DNA of 38,700 bases. Source: a virus. This document shows positions 4,905 to 37,596 of this stretch, piece by piece. Positions within the stretch are counted from its first letter, which is position 1. Each line of letters begins with the position of its first letter. A model generated the notes under the pieces. It was not told the DNA's origin. It did no database searches and saw only the letters and a program-made list of their open reading frames with translations. The stretch covers positions 1 through 38,700 of IMG/VR virus record IMGVR_UViG_3300034152_000594; one strand, given 5' to 3'. Position numbers and translations under genes: made by a program.

Positions 4905-6455
4905 TCAGCGTTCGCCCCACGTGAGGGAGCCATTAACAGTGTTGCCACTATCAGCAACGCTTTCTACTGTCAGCGTCAAAATGTCGCCGGCAGTACCTCC
5001 CGAATTGGAAATCGGACGAGTGAGAAACTCGCGGTTGTAACGGAAAATTTCCTGCAGCACAATGTTTTGACCATCATCATCACCAGCGAAGAAGGTGGCA
5101 ACAGTATCGCCACCAGTCACTCCCGTCGCAGTAGTGTTGTATTCAATGGCAGACAGTTGCGCGGTGCTAGTAAAATTCGACGTGTCGGTAGATGGATCTA
5201 CAGTCGCGCCACTAATTGACAATGCAGAAGGATTTTTGATTAACGAAAACTTCGCTCGATACTCACTAGAAAAATTAAGCATCAACGGCACAACACGCAT
5301 GATGTTGGTCTTGCTATTGCCGTCCGCATTGGTAATATTTTCTTTGCATCGAATGCTCAACAAAGGACGAACCGTCCCAGGGTCAATCGATGCGGCAGAA
5401 CCAGGTTGCGAAAAGATGTCATACTTGCTTGCATCGCCACCATCAATCTCCGCTTTGGTGCCATAAATCTTAAGGAACACTGCTTGAGGCAGATTTCCTG
5501 TTTTGCTCACCTTAAAAGTAAGCGGAAGATTGGGGTTGCCAAGGCTTGGGAATGGCAGACGATCACAAGTGTTGAGCTGATGAATGGTCACCCAACGGGC
5601 TTGTTTCGCGACATCCCCTGCCGGGAGGTTTTCATCTACAGGCACATAAGCCATCAGACGAGCCGCAGAGCCGCCATACCAGCCCATTTGAATGCGGAAC
5701 ATTGTCACATTGGACAAGCTCAGCGTGTGAACACTAGGGCTCACTCCATCAAGCTTGTCTCCGTTAAACACGCTGCGTGCAACAATCTCTTCCATAACGG
5801 AAGGATCGCCATCCAGCACTTTATACCGATAGCCGTTGTACAAGCTTGTCGGATCATTAACAGTGAAGTCAGTAGATCCTACAGGCGCCCCATGATTCTG
5901 AGGGCTCTCTCCAGAATTTGTGCGGCGAACAAAGAACAAATCATTGCCAATCACGCGGATGATATAACCGTTCTTGTCGTCCCAAATGCCAAATTCAATC
6001 GTCGCATTGGTGTCCTTAAGCATAGACACGCCAAAGCTCACATCAGTGATACGGCCAGTCTGATACGGAAACACCAAACGGCTCTGCATTTGAGCCACAG
6101 TGCCATTCGTGGCATTTGTATTAACCAGCAACTGTGCGCCACTCTCTAGCGGCAAGTGCGTCACTGTTGAATAATCAGGAGTGCCAGTATCATCTGCAGT
6201 GGTCTTCCAAGCCTTCGGATCGATGGCAAGGATGTTTGTGGAGTCCCAAAGCTGCAGACTGCTTTGCACTCGTGGATTGCCAAGCAGATCATCATGCACC
6301 TCACTAGGTGCGCTCAAATTATCAAGGATGGGAACCGGCGTTTGATCACTGGCAATGACAACTGGCAGCGAATTTGCCATCGTTGCCTGACCAGCAGCAA
6401 GAGGCTCTGAACGGCCAACTGTTACTACCTGTTTTCCTTCTTCAATGTCAGGCAT
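4905..6455 (-). CDS. Virion structural protein, smaller paralogue
   Basis: 516 residues, seven bases upstream of its larger paralogue. The N-terminus carries NSLPVVIASDQTPVPI, a phrase common near the start of phage structural proteins. It then shares with the 694-aa neighbour NPR..S.L.LW, YQTGR, a GIWDDKNGYIIRVIGND strand, FNGDKLDG, GWYGGSAAR and a terminal beta-rich part. The two most likely arose by tandem duplication followed by divergence, with different C-terminal domains. Probably part of the tail tip or side fibres. Exact function is not visible from sequence. Confidence 0.7.
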   Translation of the reverse strand: MPDIEEGKQVVTVGRSEPLAAGQATMANSLPVVIASDQTPVPILDNLSAPSEVHDDLLGNPRVQSSLQLWDSTNILAIDPKAWKTTADDTGTPDYSTVTHLPLESGAQLLVNTNATNGTVAQMQSRLVFPYQTGRITDVSFGVSMLKDTNATIEFGIWDDKNGYIIRVIGNDLFFVRRTNSGESPQNHGAPVGSTDFTVNDPTSLYNGYRYKVLDGDPSVMEEIVARSVFNGDKLDGVSPSVHTLSLSNVTMFRIQMGWYGGSAARLMAYVPVDENLPAGDVAKQARWVTIHQLNTCDRLPFPSLGNPNLPLTFKVSKTGNLPQAVFLKIYGTKAEIDGGDASKYDIFSQPGSAASIDPGTVRPLLSIRCKENITNADGNSKTNIMRVVPLMLNFSSEYRAKFSLIKNPSALSISGATVDPSTDTSNFTSTAQLSAIEYNTTATGVTGGDTVATFFAGDDDGQNIVLQEIFRYNREFLTRPISNSGGTAGDILTLTVESVADSGNTVNGSLTWGER

Positions 6456-8757: not shown

Positions 8758-10739
8758 TACGTGGTAGTGAGAACAATGGAGGAAGGTGTGACCACTGGAA
8801 TCACTCTAGTACGAGCCACTGAAGACACCGAAGCCGTAAAATAAGTGGAATTTTCAACAAGACTATATTTGTCTTCATTGTGCTCTGTAGCGACAACAGT
8901 CACAGTGTTGTCTTCGTTTTCGTTCAGACCAATCACTCGATATTTCCTGCGTTGCGCCGATGTTGGACGCAAAAGCCAAGTTGTTCCCTCCGCAGGAGCT
9001 GAAGGAAATCCCGATGCAACATCAATGACCGTGTGAGTGCCAGCGCCAGTCACCACGTCAGTGCCATAATTTTGATCAGGAAACACAACTTGCAATCGAT
9101 AGGCGATGCCGCTATTAAGCGTCACCGCTCGATCAAGAGCGATTCTTGTTGATGATGAACCAGCTACGACAATGCCAGCAGCAATTCCAGGCGTCTTCCC
9201 TGGATCCGCAATTTCAATCAATTCACCGGGAAGCAAAAACAGCCCTTGAGCGGTGGTTTTGAAGCTCACTGTCTCTTTTTCTGTGAGGTTGGTAGCCAAT
9301 ATCCACCGCCCAAGCCTTTGCGCTTGCCCGCGAGAAGTGCAGCCAAAACCCCTCACCTCAGTTTCTCTGTAGCCATATTGATCAATTGCTTGCCTGTCTT
9401 CCACATATTCAATTTTGGTTTTATACAAATCATCAGGATCATTCCATGAGACCAAAGCAATTGTCTTCCTTGCCTTCCGCCCAGTGCCCTCATAGACAAA
9501 AGGAGGCGCAGTTATTTCCCCTTGCTCATTTTCTTCTTGAATAACATTAGAAGGATTGAAATGCTTGACAACAAAGCCAGGCTTGTCTTGCGTGGGAACA
9601 ATTGCACCATTTGCATAGTACAACATTCCTCTAAATGCAGCCGCAAGTGAATTCAACACTTCATAAGCTTCTCCCCTGTTGTTGATATAGCCATTAAACA
9701 CAAAACGAGGCTCCGTCCCGCCTCTGCCATCACTCACTGTCTCATCGCAATACTGCCCCACTTCATATAAAGCGAATTTATCAATGTCAGACTCATTGAT
9801 AAAATCTCCACAACCATATCGATCATCTGTGATTAAATCATAAAAAACCCATGCGGGATTATTGCTATATTCAGTCTTGAATCCTCCGTTCCAAATGCCT
9901 GAATAAGTGCGATCCCTTGTGTTGTAATTATTTGGCACTTTAATCTTTAGCCCCTTCAACAAGGCACTCACTCGCGGAATAGAACTAAAGCCTTCGGAGC
10001 GAAACTTAAGCCCAATCAATGCAGTGCCAGGATATTTGAATCCCTTGCTGATAATACCAACAACAGCTTTGTAATACAGTTCATTCACTCGCACTGCCCC
10101 GCCTGTAAATGCGGGGTCATCAGGGTCAAGAGATAGTCTGTCAACACGCACTGTCCATGGTCCCTCTCCAGACAATCCAAATTCATATTCAAAATCAACT
10201 GGACTGCTAGATTTGCCGCTAATCTCTCTCCTTGCACTTACAATTTGATTGCCATTTTTGTCCAAAATGTCAATCTGAAAGTCCACGTCGTAAGCTCGCC
10301 TATCGCCATCTTCCTGAATCCAGTACAATGCAGCAACGCCCATGCGGACGATCACCCTGTCAAGATCACTGCTTGTCGTCGTCACGCTAATGGGACCAGC
10401 AGATCGTCTTAATTGAGTGCCAACAGATTGTTCAATCCTTACGTCGCCAAATCCCCCAAGAGCGCTTTGATTGATATCGCCTTGCCTAAATTCATATTCA
10501 ACATTGTCCCCAAAATTACTACGACCAGCATTATCTTGCAAGGGCGTATCATTCAAGAAAATACTCCTAGGGGCCGATTCAGCAAAGCCTTCAATTGGCC
10601 CTTCGCATAATGCCGCTACAACGTTTGCCGTGGCTCTACTGCGTAGAGTGTCGTCCTCCACTTCAGGACCATCACTACTTCCGCCGCCGCCTCCGCCGCC
10701 GCCGGCGCCACTAAGAATTAGCTTGTCTTCATCAATCAT
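8757..10739 (-). CDS. J: Tail tip/host specificity protein, lambda J-like
   Basis: 660 residues. After a short N-terminus with a run of Gly (about residues 11-20) comes the hallmark of J proteins: DDTLRSRATANVVAALCEG, PIEGF, then SIFLNDTPLQD and the RIEQSVGTQ strand. Next are the hub domains (DLITDDRYGCGDFINESDID, RGMLYYANGAIVPTQDKPGF, LGRWILATNLTEKETVSFKT). It forms the central tip of the tail, plugging the tube and contacting the host. Lambda J exceeds 1,100 residues; here the distal FN3 and fibre parts are absent and seem to be separate downstream genes. Follows I and K in the lambda order. Confidence 0.9.
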   Translation of the reverse strand: MIDEDKLILSGAGGGGGGGGSSDGPEVEDDTLRSRATANVVAALCEGPIEGFAESAPRSIFLNDTPLQDNAGRSNFGDNVEYEFRQGDINQSALGGFGDVRIEQSVGTQLRRSAGPISVTTTSSDLDRVIVRMGVAALYWIQEDGDRRAYDVDFQIDILDKNGNQIVSARREISGKSSSPVDFEYEFGLSGEGPWTVRVDRLSLDPDDPAFTGGAVRVNELYYKAVVGIISKGFKYPGTALIGLKFRSEGFSSIPRVSALLKGLKIKVPNNYNTRDRTYSGIWNGGFKTEYSNNPAWVFYDLITDDRYGCGDFINESDIDKFALYEVGQYCDETVSDGRGGTEPRFVFNGYINNRGEAYEVLNSLAAAFRGMLYYANGAIVPTQDKPGFVVKHFNPSNVIQEENEQGEITAPPFVYEGTGRKARKTIALVSWNDPDDLYKTKIEYVEDRQAIDQYGYRETEVRGFGCTSRGQAQRLGRWILATNLTEKETVSFKTTAQGLFLLPGELIEIADPGKTPGIAAGIVVAGSSSTRIALDRAVTLNSGIAYRLQVVFPDQNYGTDVVTGAGTHTVIDVASGFPSAPAEGTTWLLRPTSAQRRKYRVIGLNENEDNTVTVVATEHNEDKYSLVENSTYFTASVSSVARTRVIPVVTPSSIVLTTT

Positions 10740-25957: not shown

Positions 25958-26677
25958 TTATTCAGGCTCCACTAGAAGACCATCAAAATTCTTCGATGCC
26001 CAAAACAGACCAAGTTGTTCTCCTGCCGTATATTCATACAGCACACGAAAACCTTGCTCTTTTAACAATTTCGCCAATTCAACCATAGAAAGACGCCCCT
26101 TAAAATCCGCTAGAAATTCCGGCGTGTTTTCTTCAAACATGAACGTCCCCATTCCTTGCGTTCCCACGCCATTGTGGAATTCTCCAATGATCGTTTCGAT
26201 TTGATCGAGCTTGGTGCAAGTGTAGAGAGCAGGAAACTCCGCCCCTTCCGCATCAATCTTGATCCAATTCGGCTCATATTTTTCAATGGCCTCATCAAGA
26301 GAAATGGAAGGAACAACTTCTCCGAGGCCAGTAACACTGCAACCCCCGCCAGAATTAACGGCATCATCACTCGGTTCAAACCGCACCTCCACTTGCTTGT
26401 CGCTCCTGGAGACCGCCGCCCGAACCACTTCAGACTTGTCTCCTAGCTCTTTCAAATTAGAAGCTGCCAAGTCGTAATTCTCTTGATTGGGCTCAAAAGA
26501 AACAATTTTTTCCGCATTGCAACGAAATGCCTTCAATGCAAAGCAACCAATGTGACCCCCCACATCGAGAATACGCTTGCCGGACAAATCACCAAGCTCA
26601 TATTCATTTTGCCTTACGACAAAATCAAAAATCGATGCGTCGTAGGTGTTTTCGCGAAAACGAAACTGCATGATCAA
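25958..26677 (-). CDS. FkbM-family SAM-dependent methyltransferase
   Basis: 239 residues. SAM-binding motif I is GKRILDVGGHIGCFALKAF (about 34-52), then IVSFEPNQENYDLAASNL with the acidic ribose-binding residue. VVRAAVS and the post-motif NWIKIDAEGAEFPAL (about 136-150) are diagnostic of FkbM enzymes. These usually O-methylate sugars or glycans. The start overlaps the stop of the glycosyltransferase gene by four bases (ATGA), so the two are translationally coupled and probably act on the same glycan. Target (virion glycan, host surface or a modified protein) is unknown. Confidence 0.85.
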   Translation of the reverse strand: MIMQFRFRENTYDASIFDFVVRQNEYELGDLSGKRILDVGGHIGCFALKAFRCNAEKIVSFEPNQENYDLAASNLKELGDKSEVVRAAVSRSDKQVEVRFEPSDDAVNSGGGCSVTGLGEVVPSISLDEAIEKYEPNWIKIDAEGAEFPALYTCTKLDQIETIIGEFHNGVGTQGMGTFMFEENTPEFLADFKGRLSMVELAKLLKEQGFRVLYEYTAGEQLGLFWASKNFDGLLVEPE

Positions 26678-27879
26678 GCCTCCTTAATTTTGCGCTTACG
26701 CTTGGGTTTGGGGGGTTCTACGAGAGTGCGATTGACAATTTGCAAGAATGCATTGCCAATCGTTTCCCATGAATACACGTCCTCTTGTGTCATCTGATAA
26801 CACCAGTCGGCCACTTTCTGAAGGTCGTCGCGATGCTCGTAGTAGTGATTCAAAATATCGGCCAAGCCATCTGCAGATGGCTGGCCCCTGTCCAAACCAT
26901 AATTGCAATCCACTTCCCAGCTCTCCACAGGAATCCGAGGAATGCCACGAAAGATCTCTTTCATTGATGTGTGGTCAGGCACAATTTGTGCCACGCCAGT
27001 AGCGGCATGTTCAAAATTGACCAGTCCCCAACCCTCTCCGATGCAAGTGTTAACCCCCACATCGGCACAGTTGTAAGCTCGATTCAAGGCATCCACAGGC
27101 AAGCATCGTGTCACATCAAACTGCCTAGAAGTGAGGATCATCCGCCCCGTAGGATCAATGCCCATGTCACGAGCCATGCGCTTGAACAATGGAATGATGT
27201 CCCACCCTTGATCCTTTGCCCCCATGTGCAGCCAAAGCTTTGCATCAGGCTTGTCCACGGCAAATTTCAAAAATCCACGAATCGTAATATCAATCCGTTT
27301 CCGTGGCTGATTGCGATTGCCATTAAAAACAATAAATTGATCGGGATCAATTTTGAATTCTTCGCGACAAGCAGCTTTGTCCATTTTGAAGAAATCTTTC
27401 CTTTCGATGCCATGCGGAATCACGTCACAAGGCATGTCACAACCAGCTTTACGCACTTCCTCTAGCCCAAACTGCGTGTAAGTGCCCATGCCATCCCATT
27501 CTTGGCATTCCTTAAACACATCAGGGAAGAAGCCATAGCTATCCACTGGGAAGTAGCCGTACCATTTGAAGTCAAGCTCTTCCTTTACACGCTTGGCAAC
27601 ATTCCAAAGATTATTCAAAATCCAAATGTCATTGACAGCAAGCACCATGTCCGGCTTCTCTTTCTGAAGCACTTCAACAATTCGATGCGTTCCGAATGGA
27701 TCGCTACCGCCTGGCATTGCTGGATACATCCGGTAGGGGAGATCATGGGGGTCGCCCCACCAGTTGGAGCAAAGTGCCACCACTTCATGCTCTTGACTCA
27801 GTTGTGCAGTGAGTTTTTCACCAACACGCCCAAATCCGGTTTGCACCGCAAGGTCACCAACGTACAAAATTTTGGCCAC
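26674..27879 (-). CDS. GT-B glycosyltransferase (GT4-like)
   Basis: 401 residues from GTG at 27879, where the protein begins (M)AKILYVGDLAVQTGFGRVG like other GT4 enzymes; an upstream ATG at 27945 adds 22 unusual residues overlapping the HNH/AP2 gene. N-terminal Rossmann domain is followed by the C-terminal donor domain: FIVFNGNRNQPRKRIDITIR, DAKLWLHMGAKDQGW, then GVNTCIGEGWGLVNFEHAA with the EGWGL..-E family motif and VPDHTSMKEIF. Basic tail PKPKRKRKIK. Coupled to the FkbM methyltransferase. Transfers a sugar from a nucleotide donor; acceptor unknown. Confidence 0.85.
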   Translation of the reverse strand: MAKILYVGDLAVQTGFGRVGEKLTAQLSQEHEVVALCSNWWGDPHDLPYRMYPAMPGGSDPFGTHRIVEVLQKEKPDMVLAVNDIWILNNLWNVAKRVKEELDFKWYGYFPVDSYGFFPDVFKECQEWDGMGTYTQFGLEEVRKAGCDMPCDVIPHGIERKDFFKMDKAACREEFKIDPDQFIVFNGNRNQPRKRIDITIRGFLKFAVDKPDAKLWLHMGAKDQGWDIIPLFKRMARDMGIDPTGRMILTSRQFDVTRCLPVDALNRAYNCADVGVNTCIGEGWGLVNFEHAATGVAQIVPDHTSMKEIFRGIPRIPVESWEVDCNYGLDRGQPSADGLADILNHYYEHRDDLQKVADWCYQMTQEDVYSWETIGNAFLQIVNRTLVEPPKPKRKRKIKEA

Positions 27880-27904
27880 GAAAAAAAACAAATCGCTGGC
27901 CAAA

Positions 27905-28420
27905 TCATAGTGGCAGTTTTTGTGGCAGGAAAAACTCTCCGGCATATGGCTTCACCACTGCTTCCCAAGCCGCAACTGCCTCTTCCCTAGAGTCAAAGGA
28001 CCCAATGTACCGTCCCCTATAGCGAGCTTCCCATTTGGTAGAAGCACCCCAAAACCGCGACCGTATCCCTCTCAGGCTAGATTTACAGTTGGCTTGGCAT
28101 CCAGCATTCCACTTATTTTCAGCTTCGCTTGCTAAGCGAAGATTTTCTGGTCGATTATCGGAAGGGTCTCGGTTGATGTGGTCAATCTCCCAGCCAAGAC
28201 TATCAATGCCATAAGCCAAGTAATACACAATCCTGTGATAGCCATAGTGTTTCCTTTTCAGGCAAACCTGACTGTGACGCTTGCCTCCCGATCTTCCCGC
28301 TTTAGCGCCAACTGCAATTCTGGGATGTGGCGATTTTTTCCACACAAGGACGCCTCCCTCTTCCAGTTTCAAATACTCGTCAATGAGGTCAGTCGGTAAC
28401 GGCTTTCTTGCTTTTGCCAT
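27905..28420 (-). CDS. HNH endonuclease with AP2 DNA-binding domain
   Basis: 171 residues. The HNH core at about 60-105 has YHRIVYYLAYG, WEIDHINRDPSDNRPENLRL (Asp80-His81, Asn83, Asn93) and a following Asn. Residues 115-160 form an AP2-like domain: LRGIRSRFWGASTKWEARYR, RYIGSFDSREEAVAAWE. This pairing is a common phage homing endonuclease. It is wedged between the minor head gene and the glycosyltransferase, consistent with insertion. The glycosyltransferase start is just after it. Confidence 0.85.
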   Translation of the reverse strand: MAKARKPLPTDLIDEYLKLEEGGVLVWKKSPHPRIAVGAKAGRSGGKRHSQVCLKRKHYGYHRIVYYLAYGIDSLGWEIDHINRDPSDNRPENLRLASEAENKWNAGCQANCKSSLRGIRSRFWGASTKWEARYRGRYIGSFDSREEAVAAWEAVVKPYAGEFFLPQKLPL

Positions 28421-33340: not shown

Positions 33341-33571
33341 ATGACACGCTCAATGGACAACCCCCATTTGCAAGCTCTAATTCGAGAGCTTCTTCAAGCG
33401 TCTGAAGTGCTTACGCAGGCAGTCAACACGTTCGGAGAGAATTCTCTTCAAGCCCAGCATGCCGAATCACGCTACATAGAAAAGTCTGAGCTTTTTCGTA
33501 GAGAATGCTTTTGGGAGCAATTCTGCAATGCAGAACCATGGGCTGTTGAATGCCGCATTTATGACGTTTGA
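33341..33571 (+). CDS. Small hypothetical protein
   Basis: 76 residues, helical (HLQALIRELLQASEVLTQAV, AESRYIEKSELFRRECFWEQ) with a Cys/Trp-rich end (CNAEPWAVECRIYDV). Nine bases after the previous gene in the same direction. AAGGA lies about ten bases before the ATG. An internal ATG at Met5 is possible. Function unknown; part of the terminase operon by spacing. Confidence 0.55.
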   Translation: MTRSMDNPHLQALIRELLQASEVLTQAVNTFGENSLQAQHAESRYIEKSELFRRECFWEQFCNAEPWAVECRIYDV

Positions 33572-34365: not shown

Positions 34366-35160
34366 CTAAGCCTTTCCGTAGGACGGCAGTGATGTGTTTG
34401 GCGCTTCAAAAAATGCTGGCATCCGGGAACGTTGCGTATCAGACAATTCTTCTGCTTTTCCGCGTTCAAATAAATTGTCGCTTTGACGCAGCCAGAAATC
34501 TTTGTCCAGCCACTTGTTCTCGCTAAAACCTAGCTTATCGAAAATCCATAATGCCGTAGCGCGACGCAGCTTATTCAAAGATTGTCCCGCATTCTCATTA
34601 AGCTCGCGTGCGACCAAGGAGTGGATGCCAACATGACTAATCTCGTCACGGCTAATGTCCGCACTGACCGTGCGAATGCCCACGTCTCCATTGAAGCGAA
34701 AGAATGGAAGAATGACAAAGAAAATAGACCTTTCAAGAACTGATGCTTTCAAAATTGGATGGGCGGGATGCTCAAGCCAAGCTTTCAAGATGTTTTGAGC
34801 TTCTTTTTCCGCTTGCTCATTAACACCATGGGCTGCAGCGATGTAGCCAAGAGCCTCATCATGACGCTCCTCGTCCTTTTGATTATGAACAAGAGCCTCC
34901 ACCACTCCAGGAGTGGTTGGCAAATCACGCTCTAATCCTTGCTGCAGGAACTCCCTTACGGGAAGCTCCAAGTGACGCAAGGCCAATGCGCGAAAAATAG
35001 TTTCCTCACTCCCTTCAACCAACTTCCCTTGATCCACGGGCACCGCCTGCCAAGGACGCTTCTTGGCAAGCATGTTCAAATAGGGAGAGGGAGAGGGAGA
35101 GGGAGAGGGAGAGGGAGAGGGAGAAACCACGGAAAAAGATTGAGCCGTTTTAACAGTCAT
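34366..35160 (-). CDS. nrdB: Ribonucleotide reductase class I small subunit (NrdB-like)
   Basis: 264 residues from ATG 35160; a GTG at 35193 and an ATG at 35073 (after the repeat) are alternatives. Numbered from the GTG, the metal ligands of the ferritin-like fold are visible: a likely Glu76, then E108-x-x-H111 in KDEERHDEA, Glu154 in LERSIFF and E184-x-x-H187 in RDEISHVGIH. The residue four after His111, where the radical Tyr of class Ia sits, is Leu115. An (Ser-Pro)7 stretch lies near the N-terminus. It should generate the radical for the adjacent NrdA-like protein; the cofactor is not deducible. Overall short for R2 (usually 320-400). Confidence 0.8.
   Translation of the reverse strand: MTVKTAQSFSVVSPSPSPSPSPSPSPYLNMLAKKRPWQAVPVDQGKLVEGSEETIFRALALRHLELPVREFLQQGLERDLPTTPGVVEALVHNQKDEERHDEALGYIAAAHGVNEQAEKEAQNILKAWLEHPAHPILKASVLERSIFFVILPFFRFNGDVGIRTVSADISRDEISHVGIHSLVARELNENAGQSLNKLRRATALWIFDKLGFSENKWLDKDFWLRQSDNLFERGKAEELSDTQRSRMPAFFEAPNTSLPSYGKA
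35082..35123. repeat. Seven perfect copies of hexamer AGGGAG
   Basis: 42 bases of AGGGAG repeats on the given strand, read in nrdB as alternating Ser-Pro codons (TCTCCC). Perfect copies imply recent slippage. Six-base units keep the reading frame whatever the copy number. If translation starts at 35073, the repeat instead lies in a pyrimidine-rich leader. Confidence 0.95.
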
Positions 35161-35182
35161 TTGATCAATGCGAAGGAAACAA

Positions 35183-36610
35183 TCACTCTGCACATGCCGC
35201 GCAGAATCCCGCCTCTAAATCACAAGACGACTCTCCTCCATCTCCCGATGAACTGTCTTCATCGAGACCAAACATGGATTTGAAATCGTCATCTAATGCC
35301 GCGTAGGCATCGTCTTTCCGCTGCGTGTCCGGGAGGACTTGCAGGGAATAGTAGAGGCTTGTCTGAGGACACTCTAGCCAATCCTTCAAAAAATCACGGT
35401 CATAAGTGACAACATCTGACCATGAATTAAACGAATAGCCATGAAACAAATCAGTGGATTGATACAGTCGTACAATGCCGTCTGCCACTTTTTTATAATT
35501 CTCCCACCCCACGTCTGACGCTGTTTCTACATTGCCATAGTCGAAACTTTCCACGCCAAATGTGCCACTATCACGATCCACATAACGCCCAATGGGAGGA
35601 GCAATTTCAGGAGCTGTGGTGAAGCCATTGATGTCTGTATAGCGATAGGAACACGATGCAGTGGGAGCAATTGCAAACGCACGTACCATACCATTTAACT
35701 TCGCCACTTGAGCAGCGCGATGAATGCCATTGTGCAATGCTTCAACAATTCGCCCTGGAATGGTCTCTTCCCAACGGCTCCATTCACTAGGCGCACCAAA
35801 AAATGCCTCTAGTGCATTACCGAAATCTTTGTAAGTGGTGCCATTATTTGCCAAGAAATTGGCAAGCCCAAGAATGCCAAGTCCCACTTGCTTATCAATG
35901 GAAGCTGGCAGGTATTCTCCCGTGTCACCCACGCCAGTGCGACCATGCAGGGAGCACAAGTCTTCCATGCCCTCCGGAAACACTGTCTCAAGATCATCAA
36001 TGGCACAGGCGCCAAGATTCACATGCTCCAAAAGACAAGTGCCACGATGCGGAAGATACACTTCTAAACAAACATTAGGCAAAATACGTTCGCCATTATT
36101 GTCCCAACGCATTTTGTTCAGCCAAATATCACCAGAAGCAATGCCTTTAAGCGTGGCATCAATTAGCTCTGGCGATGCTGAAGAAAGGAAATTTTCATCC
36201 ACATTGAGACAACGTTTCACCCACGGAAAGTCACTTCTCGATGCTTTCACGAATTCCAAAGCATCAGCATGTGAATAATCAAGATGCAACACAACGGCTC
36301 CATTTTTATAACGCCCTCCCCTACGCAAAATTTCATTAAGAACGCTATAAATCTTGCCAAAGCTCATTGGACCACTAGCAACCAGCCCCTTGCCATTTTC
36401 TTCGCCTTTGGGGCGAAGCTGCGACAAATGAACGGCAACGCCCGCACCATTCCTAAGGCCATGGCTTACGAAACGCCACGAGGCTTCAATGCCATCTTCG
36501 CCTTCCATTGAATCTTCCACTTGGAAGACCGTGCAGCTTACGGGCAATCGGCCAGATGGATCATCAATCCAATTTTGCACCCGCCCAGTGCGAGCAATTT
36601 TTTCTTTCAT
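35183..36610 (-). CDS. nrdA: Ribonucleotide reductase class I large subunit (NrdA-like)
   Basis: 475 residues from ATG 36610 (MKEKIARTGRVQNW); the longer frame to 36697 adds no conserved sequence and crosses a hairpin. Active-site residues, numbered from this start: Cys26 (LPVSCTVF), Asn179-Val-Cys181-Leu-Glu183 (thiyl radical site), Cys192 (second redox Cys), and a C-terminal CAAC pair at 470/473. The phrase TSLYYSLQVLPDT has the Tyr-Tyr dyad (420/421) that relays the radical in class I enzymes. APTASCSYRYTDINGF is the substrate-phosphate loop. No ATP-cone. Short compact class I alpha as in cyanobacterial sipho- and podoviruses, a group earlier called class II. Ends 22 bases before the nrdB ATG. 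Confidence 0.88.
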   Translation of the reverse strand: MKEKIARTGRVQNWIDDPSGRLPVSCTVFQVEDSMEGEDGIEASWRFVSHGLRNGAGVAVHLSQLRPKGEENGKGLVASGPMSFGKIYSVLNEILRRGGRYKNGAVVLHLDYSHADALEFVKASRSDFPWVKRCLNVDENFLSSASPELIDATLKGIASGDIWLNKMRWDNNGERILPNVCLEVYLPHRGTCLLEHVNLGACAIDDLETVFPEGMEDLCSLHGRTGVGDTGEYLPASIDKQVGLGILGLANFLANNGTTYKDFGNALEAFFGAPSEWSRWEETIPGRIVEALHNGIHRAAQVAKLNGMVRAFAIAPTASCSYRYTDINGFTTAPEIAPPIGRYVDRDSGTFGVESFDYGNVETASDVGWENYKKVADGIVRLYQSTDLFHGYSFNSWSDVVTYDRDFLKDWLECPQTSLYYSLQVLPDTQRKDDAYAALDDDFKSMFGLDEDSSSGDGGESSCDLEAGFCAACAE

Positions 36611-36636: not shown

Positions 36637-36663
36637 AGAGCCGCCCTTTAAGGGGGCGGCTCT
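36637..36663. promoter_or_regulatory. Strong hairpin upstream of nrdA
   Basis: AGAGCCGCCC / GGGCGGCTCT, a perfect 10-bp stem with a 7-base loop. It lies 26 bases before the nrdA start and 60 bases after the previous stop. It lacks a proper U-tract in either direction (leftward there is TCTGTTTTTG about 17 bases on). It may be a weak terminator, an RNA-processing site or a leader hairpin of nrdA. Same C-rich/TTTAAG/G-rich build as hairpins near 38 kb. Confidence 0.55.
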
Positions 36664-36978: not shown

Positions 36979-37596
36979 TCATTTTATTTTTGCATTGCGA
37001 CGTTCTAGTTCATTGATGCCAAATATTGTCAGCAAAAGACCGTGATCGAGATGGTCGTTGACCATCTCTCTTTCTTTCAGTGAGCACAGTTCGTTATAAA
37101 TAGTTTTTGATGCAAATCGCCCAGCATTAAGAGGATGATTGATTAACAATGCGGGGGAAATTTTTTCGCCATTTGTCATGCTTTCAGAAATCATCCAAAG
37201 GATGTAGTGGCGGCAGTGTTTGATGCCATTAGCTAAAGAGCGGGAGGGTTGCCATGGCTCCTGAAGATTGACAACAGGAGCAAGGCTAATGCGATTGTTA
37301 ATAAGACTGCCTCCCATGGTCCGAAGAAGGACGTCGCTTTCTTGCTGCAAGAAACTGACCAGTGCATGATTTAAGCGAAACCATTCGCCCGTAATGCGAA
37401 GAGCTGCAAATTTTTCATGCAGCATCGCCTCGTCCTCCTTCCCATTGGGAGCACTCAGGATCTTTTTGACCATCAATCGATGGCAATTGGCAGTACATAG
37501 CTCCCTCAAACGTTTCGACAAGGAAGCTGAATAGCCAATCTTGACCGAGAGGGGATCGTTTTCCCAAGAAACGAAGTAGACGCACTTCCTTGCCAT
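36979..37596 (-). CDS. GIY-YIG-like (T5orf172/MUG113) protein
   Basis: 205 residues. Residues 5-76 match the T5orf172/MUG113 version of the GIY-YIG fold: CVYFVSWENDPLSVKIGYSA, then RLRELCTANCHRLM, GKEDEAMLHEKFAALRITGE and WFRLN. Key elements: Tyr7, Lys19-Ile-Gly-Tyr-Ser, Glu56, His60 and the GEWF end. The C-terminal 110 residues are helical and unassigned (SRSLANGIKHCRHYILWMIS). AAGGA just before the ATG is a good ribosome site. Probably a DNA-acting protein or mobile nuclease; activity unproven. First gene of the leftward nrd operon. Confidence 0.75.
   Translation of the reverse strand: MARKCVYFVSWENDPLSVKIGYSASLSKRLRELCTANCHRLMVKKILSAPNGKEDEAMLHEKFAALRITGEWFRLNHALVSFLQQESDVLLRTMGGSLINNRISLAPVVNLQEPWQPSRSLANGIKHCRHYILWMISESMTNGEKISPALLINHPLNAGRFASKTIYNELCSLKEREMVNDHLDHGLLLTIFGINELERRNAKIK

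Follow-up and report, generated by a model that had tools for sequence, protein, structure and literature searches.

The DNA analysed here, a 38.7-kb virus record (the window), represents part of the genome of a cyanosiphovirus similar to S-CBS4: its head and tail genes match those of Synechococcus siphovirus S-CBS4 at ~75% nucleotide identity and follow the same gene order, on the opposite strand. Positions 34366-36610 hold two adjacent minus-strand genes of a ribonucleotide reductase, the same pair that lies in the same place in S-CBS4. The first, nrdA (35183..36610), starts with the ATG at 36610 and codes for an alpha subunit of 475 aa, assigned to class Ø from its match to structure 7urg, its motifs and a tree; the second, nrdB (34366..35160), codes for a class Ø ferritin-like beta subunit, assigned from phrog_6799, family counts, an AlphaFold (AF2) model and a fold match in the PDB. 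Both reading frames are intact, and in comparison with the related locus L001 NrdB shows the mark of strong purifying selection, with a dN/dS of about 0.05 and synonymous sites near saturation. Just upstream of nrdA an inverted-repeat scan found a perfect 10-bp inverted repeat, AGAGCCGCCC/GGGCGGCTCT (36637..36663, no strand assigned), a candidate terminator-like or leader hairpin; it lies between nrdA and an upstream T5orf172/MUG113 (GIY-YIG-like) open reading frame (36979-37596, minus strand).

Two other parts of the window deserve mention. Amid the head genes, an FkbM-type methyltransferase gene and glycosyltransferase-like genes (25958-27945, minus strand) stand where S-CBS4 has glycosyltransferases and one methyltransferase. 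Near the reductase, a 76-aa plus-strand open reading frame (33341-33571) matches the CP12 domain exactly at the Pfam cut-off (22.7 bits) and ends in FCNAEPWAVECRIYDV; S-CBS4 gp008, annotated as 'hypothetical' and found in the same place, ends in CRQSPEAPECRLYDV, and the frame is a candidate for a CP12-like Calvin-cycle inhibitor in cyanosiphoviruses.

Among solved structures the best match to NrdA is 7urg, the alpha of the Synechococcus phage S-CBP4 (E 4.1e-209), followed at a great distance by class II chains (1e-5) and by 6dqw, another alpha chain (6e-5). The Tyr-Tyr relay, N-x-C-x-E site and C-terminal Cys pair described in the original prediction are all present, as Tyr420-Tyr421 (in SLYYSLQ), Cys181 (in NVCLE) and a C-terminal CAAC, together with the partner pair Cys26/Cys192. 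Cys181 is found in 143/143 aligned relatives and the Tyr-Tyr dyad in 142 of them (the remaining one has an ambiguous residue), and Cys26 and Cys192 are conserved in the same 143. A subset of the loci L093-L108 departs from this pattern at the tail: 13 alphas lack both CXXC and CXC and have FCSG..GGCSE-like tails with a widely spaced Cys pair. In a tree of 37 alpha sequences, whose long branches and midpoint root make it informative about membership and not about ancestry, the window's NrdA falls beside those of L001 and S-CBS4 in a class Ø clade with 100/100 support; E. coli NrdA, the class I alphas of cyanobacteria and further cyanobacterial alphas that look like class II all lie outside it. 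Motifs and tree thus identify NrdA as a class Ø ('Cyano SP') alpha subunit. The earlier label of class I needs amending: the alpha is placed in a separate clade, class Ø (Burnim et al. 2022, PMC9531940), though its mechanism is probably class I-like. A grouping with typical class Ia enzymes, which would have spoken against the original prediction, is not what the tree recovers.

The same enzymes were once annotated as B12-dependent class II reductases, a reading under which NrdB would be an unrelated ferritin-like protein. NrdA does score better against class II chains than against most class I chains, as Burnim et al. 2022 (PMC9531940) also reported; against this stand the Tyr-Tyr dyad, kept in 142/143 relatives and in S-CBP4 stacked beside the catalytic cysteine where class II has its adenosyl-group pocket (Burnim et al. 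2022), and an NrdB that shares NrdA's strand in 179/179 loci with both genes, has a class I beta fold and keeps the relay residues. We regard a class II enzyme as very improbable.

The extent of NrdB needed correction. The frame originally given for nrdB (34366-35193, minus strand) takes as its start a GTG that lies within nrdA, near its 3' end. NrdB relatives have in common a conserved N-terminus, M..K-SPYLNMLAKKRPW, which in most of them reads M..SPY(L/D)..(M/V)I.(K/R)KR.W, and because of this conservation the more probable start is the ATG at 35160, giving a protein of 264 aa. The ATG at 35073 is a possible start as well (235 aa, beginning MLAKK); by eye, no obvious Shine-Dalgarno sequence precedes either ATG. 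Residue numbers below count from MLAKK, so that Tyr117 of the original prediction is Tyr77 here. Between MTVK and SPYLNMLAKKRPW the window's NrdB carries ~20 residues, mostly Ser-Pro, where relatives have a single SP before Y. This insert, inside the probable N-terminus, is coded by a 43-bp hexanucleotide repeat (35082..35124, minus strand; Tandem Repeats Finder score 86) in which a 6-bp unit is repeated perfectly 7.2 times; as 6 is divisible by 3, gains or losses of copies keep the frame. Runs of at least three units were found in no other fetched locus, and the repeat appears to be lineage-specific.

NrdB falls in phrog_6799 (E 4.6e-112) and is barely detected by the Pfam small-subunit model (E 0.12). 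From 199 loci we obtained 153 distinct sequences of NrdB, the most distant sharing 36% identity with that of the window. The two ExxH motifs reported earlier, E68-x-x-H71 and E144-x-x-H147, are confirmed: the ligands E36, E68, H71, E114 and E144 are kept in 153/153 sequences and H147 in 152/153 (one X), and W8, D67, D143 and W176 are likewise found in all 153, with Y232 in 152 (one gap). The leucine at His+4, the radical position, also holds good as Leu75: the column contains Leu in 112 sequences, Phe in 41 and Tyr in none, with Leu in S-CBS4, Syn5, P-SSP7, S-CBP4, P-SSP2, S-SRP01 and Microcystis phage Mic1, and Phe in SS120-1. As every one of the 153 relatives has Leu or Phe, the leucine is not there by chance. 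The pocket that surrounds Y122 in E. coli, mapped to NrdB by motif-anchored helix register, stays greasy: F208 corresponds to F118 (153/153), F212 to L122 (153/153) and I234 to I140 (I/V). A global profile-profile alignment (hhalign) between the beta family and 30 class I betas reached a probability of 0.1% and matched reliably only the first ExxH, and was left out of the residue mapping. The PHROGs label of phrog_6799 ('class Ia beta subunit') would imply an ordinary class Ia enzyme, diiron and with its radical on a tyrosine. This is next to impossible: the place of the class Ia radical tyrosine (Y122) is taken by Leu75, no relative among the 153 has Tyr there, and the tree puts the alpha outside class I.

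The predicted structure of NrdB points to a minimal, ferritin-like fold of the class I beta type. The AlphaFold model (mean pLDDT 88, pTM 0.84, with low confidence in the last 22 residues) matches class Ia, Ib, Ic, Id and Ie betas at Z scores of 17.7-19.4, in alignments of about 210 residues; all subclasses lie within about 2 Z units, and because of this tie the fold cannot choose between Ic and Id. The top Foldseek match, the F. johnsoniae beta 8dq4, has an E of only 5e-3. Residue 1 of the model aligns at residue 39 of the E. coli protein, 42 of C. trachomatis and 22 of S. typhimurium NrdF, and the best candidate for the counterpart of W48 would be W8, after a two-residue gap, an assignment made from these alignment start points and the gap and not from coordinates.

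Could the radical tyrosine have shifted by two residues, to Tyr77 at His+6? Tyr is present there in 131/153 relatives, Mic1 among them, yet relatives that keep all ligands have Phe (17), Leu (3) or Asn (2) at this position, Asn occurring for example in the Calothrix copy. Residues 57-82 are predicted to form an unbroken helix (AlphaFold, block means 92-98), and at 100 degrees per residue Leu75 falls on the helix wheel between E68 and H71 while Tyr77 comes about 180 degrees from E68; judged by this helix geometry, Tyr77 would face away from the Leu75 side. In 30 class I betas (E. coli and 29 cyanobacterial), moreover, Tyr stands at His+6 in 23/30 beside the true radical Tyr, which is present in 30/30. 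Helix geometry, family variation and co-occurrence with the true class I radical tyrosine thus speak together against Tyr117 as the radical residue, a role we hold to be most unlikely; the original prediction had named a model with this residue at the radical position as evidence against itself, and in the predicted helix the residue is on the other face.

An oxidant held on another side chain, either a tryptophan such as W8 or a modified residue of the class Ie kind, appears quite unlikely. W8, W176 and Y232 are invariant in the family, in favour of this reading; class Ie, however, loses carboxylate ligands (Harrison et al. 2019, PMC6370689, Table 3), all of which NrdB keeps, and there is no conserved Tyr beside the metal site for DOPA formation. 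The only columns with at least 80% Tyr, Trp or Cys are Y-2, W8, Y77, W99, W176, W/Y188, W194 and Y232, and none of them in the family alignment is at a metal-facing i+3/i+4 position.

Taking as established the ligand set, the loss of the tyrosine, the conservation of the relay residues, the predicted fold and the class Ø membership, we propose that the locus codes for a minimal class Ø (Cyano SP) reductase, and that its oxidant is, with good probability, on the metal cluster: Leu75 replaces the tyrosine, no conserved redox-active residue faces the metals, and the six ligands are kept along with the relay residues W8/D143, Tyr232/Tyr421-Tyr420/Cys181. NrdB would be a four-helix ferritin-like protein binding two metal ions on E36, E68, H71, E114, E144 and H147, and would most likely store a one-electron oxidant in the dinuclear cluster, in the manner of class Ic (Mn(IV)/Fe(III)) or of class Id (Mn(IV)/Mn(III)). 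At each turnover the oxidant would pass through H71-D143-W8 to Tyr232, then to Tyr421-Tyr420 and to Cys181 of NrdA; in NrdA, the catalytic subunit, substrate would be reduced by Cys26/Cys192, and this pair re-reduced by the C-terminal CAAC using host thioredoxin or a similar reductant. The non-tyrosyl cofactor of the original prediction is in this way supported as probable, in a beta-dependent ferritin-like enzyme that lacks Tyr at the radical site.

The metals may be Mn/Fe, Mn2 or Fe2. A less probable proposition that still merits consideration is a cofactor belonging to none of the described classes Ia-Ie, for instance a metal pair whose second sphere, with the invariant Asp67, Asn64 and Asp143, is arranged in a new way, or one activated by a new route that does not need NrdI; if true, class Ø would be a further radical-generating subclass. 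Among 14 class Ø phage or virus records we found no NrdI, which makes activation by a phage-coded NrdI unlikely, and host factors may be involved. The same 14 records contained no glutaredoxin and a single thioredoxin match below the cut-off (in Syn5; none in the window), so that re-reduction probably relies on host proteins. A survey of neighbourhood clusters, read by eye from ORF clusters without further annotation, brought up no recurrent redox partner. Subunit contact with the alpha may also differ from that of class I, because NrdB, with three residues after Tyr232, lacks the class I alpha-docking tail.

The original prediction had further suggested a cofactor suited to iron-poor hosts. 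This idea is not supported, and we have not adopted it, because Leu is shared by freshwater relatives (Leu or Phe occurs throughout the clade, phages of a reservoir in Singapore and of Lake Chaohu among them) and because the clade's anticorrelation with ocean iron has been put down to host distribution by the authors of a 2026 preprint (PMC12918982).

Several relatives are unusual in other respects. A contig of the filamentous cyanobacterium Calothrix membranacea (L087) carries a class Ø-like nrdB (4911-5702), and nowhere in this draft genome was a class Ø alpha or a PF02867 match found; a nearby open reading frame (9220-9957) resembles, by eye, the end of a phage DNA polymerase, and the nrdB is a candidate orphan gene or phage remnant. 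In Microcystis phage Mic1 (L082 and L201) the class Ø alpha and beta genes share a strand but are not adjacent, with about 12 kb separating them; they diverge more than any other members (44% and 34-36% identity), and related lake contigs look alike. In S-CBP4 (NC_025464.1, L275), the best-studied member, the nrdB frame stops short at 208 codons and the protein match is split in two, which suggests a frameshift in the deposited sequence.

The non-tyrosyl reading had for the most part been published before. In Harrison et al. 2019 (PMC6370689) the beta subunit missing until then was identified in P-SSP7, with the observation that it has no radical Tyr; the same paper listed the ligand set E-E-H-E-E-H and its D-D second sphere and put forward a new subclass. 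Class Ø was defined by Burnim et al. 2022 (PMC9531940), who solved the S-CBP4 alpha with its stacked Tyr dyad, described Phe or Leu at the radical site as 'much like class Ic' together with a C-terminal Tyr and a short tail, and left the metal dependence open, and the 2026 preprint (PMC12918982) still terms the group biochemically uncharacterised. Class Ic (the Mn/Fe NrdB of Chlamydia trachomatis) shares with the window a Glu as first ligand, the absence of a radical-site Tyr (it has Phe), which is necessary for that class and not sufficient, and the fold, at Z about 18-19. It is phylogenetically distant (Harrison et al. 2019), the window's beta is roughly 100 residues shorter, and the Glu119 that precedes the first ExxH in C. 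trachomatis (their Table 3) is Asp67 in the window and Asp in 153/153 relatives. Class Id (the Mn2 enzymes of Flavobacterium johnsoniae and Leeuwenhoekiella) has the same first-sphere ligands (Harrison et al. 2019, Table 3) but keeps a conserved non-radical Tyr at the site, where the window has Leu and all 153 sequences have Leu or Phe, and its alpha is about 565 aa long (Burnim et al. 2022) versus 475 in the window.

With the class Ø or Cyano SP enzymes of S-CBP4, P-SSP7, S-CBS4 and Syn5, by contrast, the window has the following in common: a minimal alpha without an ATP-cone, with the Tyr dyad and the C-terminal Cys pair; a short ferritin-like beta gene directly downstream on the same strand; the E/EH/E/EH ligands, the first ExxH being preceded by Asp, so that the set of Harrison et al. 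2019 (Table 3) reads L75, E36 E68 H71 E114 E144 H147, D67 D143; Leu or Phe at the radical site; and a Tyr near the very end of the beta. The differences are these: the NrdA tail is CXXC, not CXC (as also in S-CBS4 and Syn5), three residues follow the last Tyr of the beta, the N-terminus of the beta carries the Ser-Pro insert, and nrdA and nrdB are 22 bp apart, compared with 58 in S-CBS4 and an overlap in podoviruses; we saw no functional difference. By every sequence feature that marks the class, the window is an ordinary additional member of the known class Ø clade. Together with its relatives it provides a residue-level case, on a question that was already open, against a radical on a tyrosine beside the metals, and it adds an intact siphoviral example to a group of enzymes that occur in abundant cyanophages and whose branch point has been proposed to lie close to the ancestor of the class I and class II reductases.
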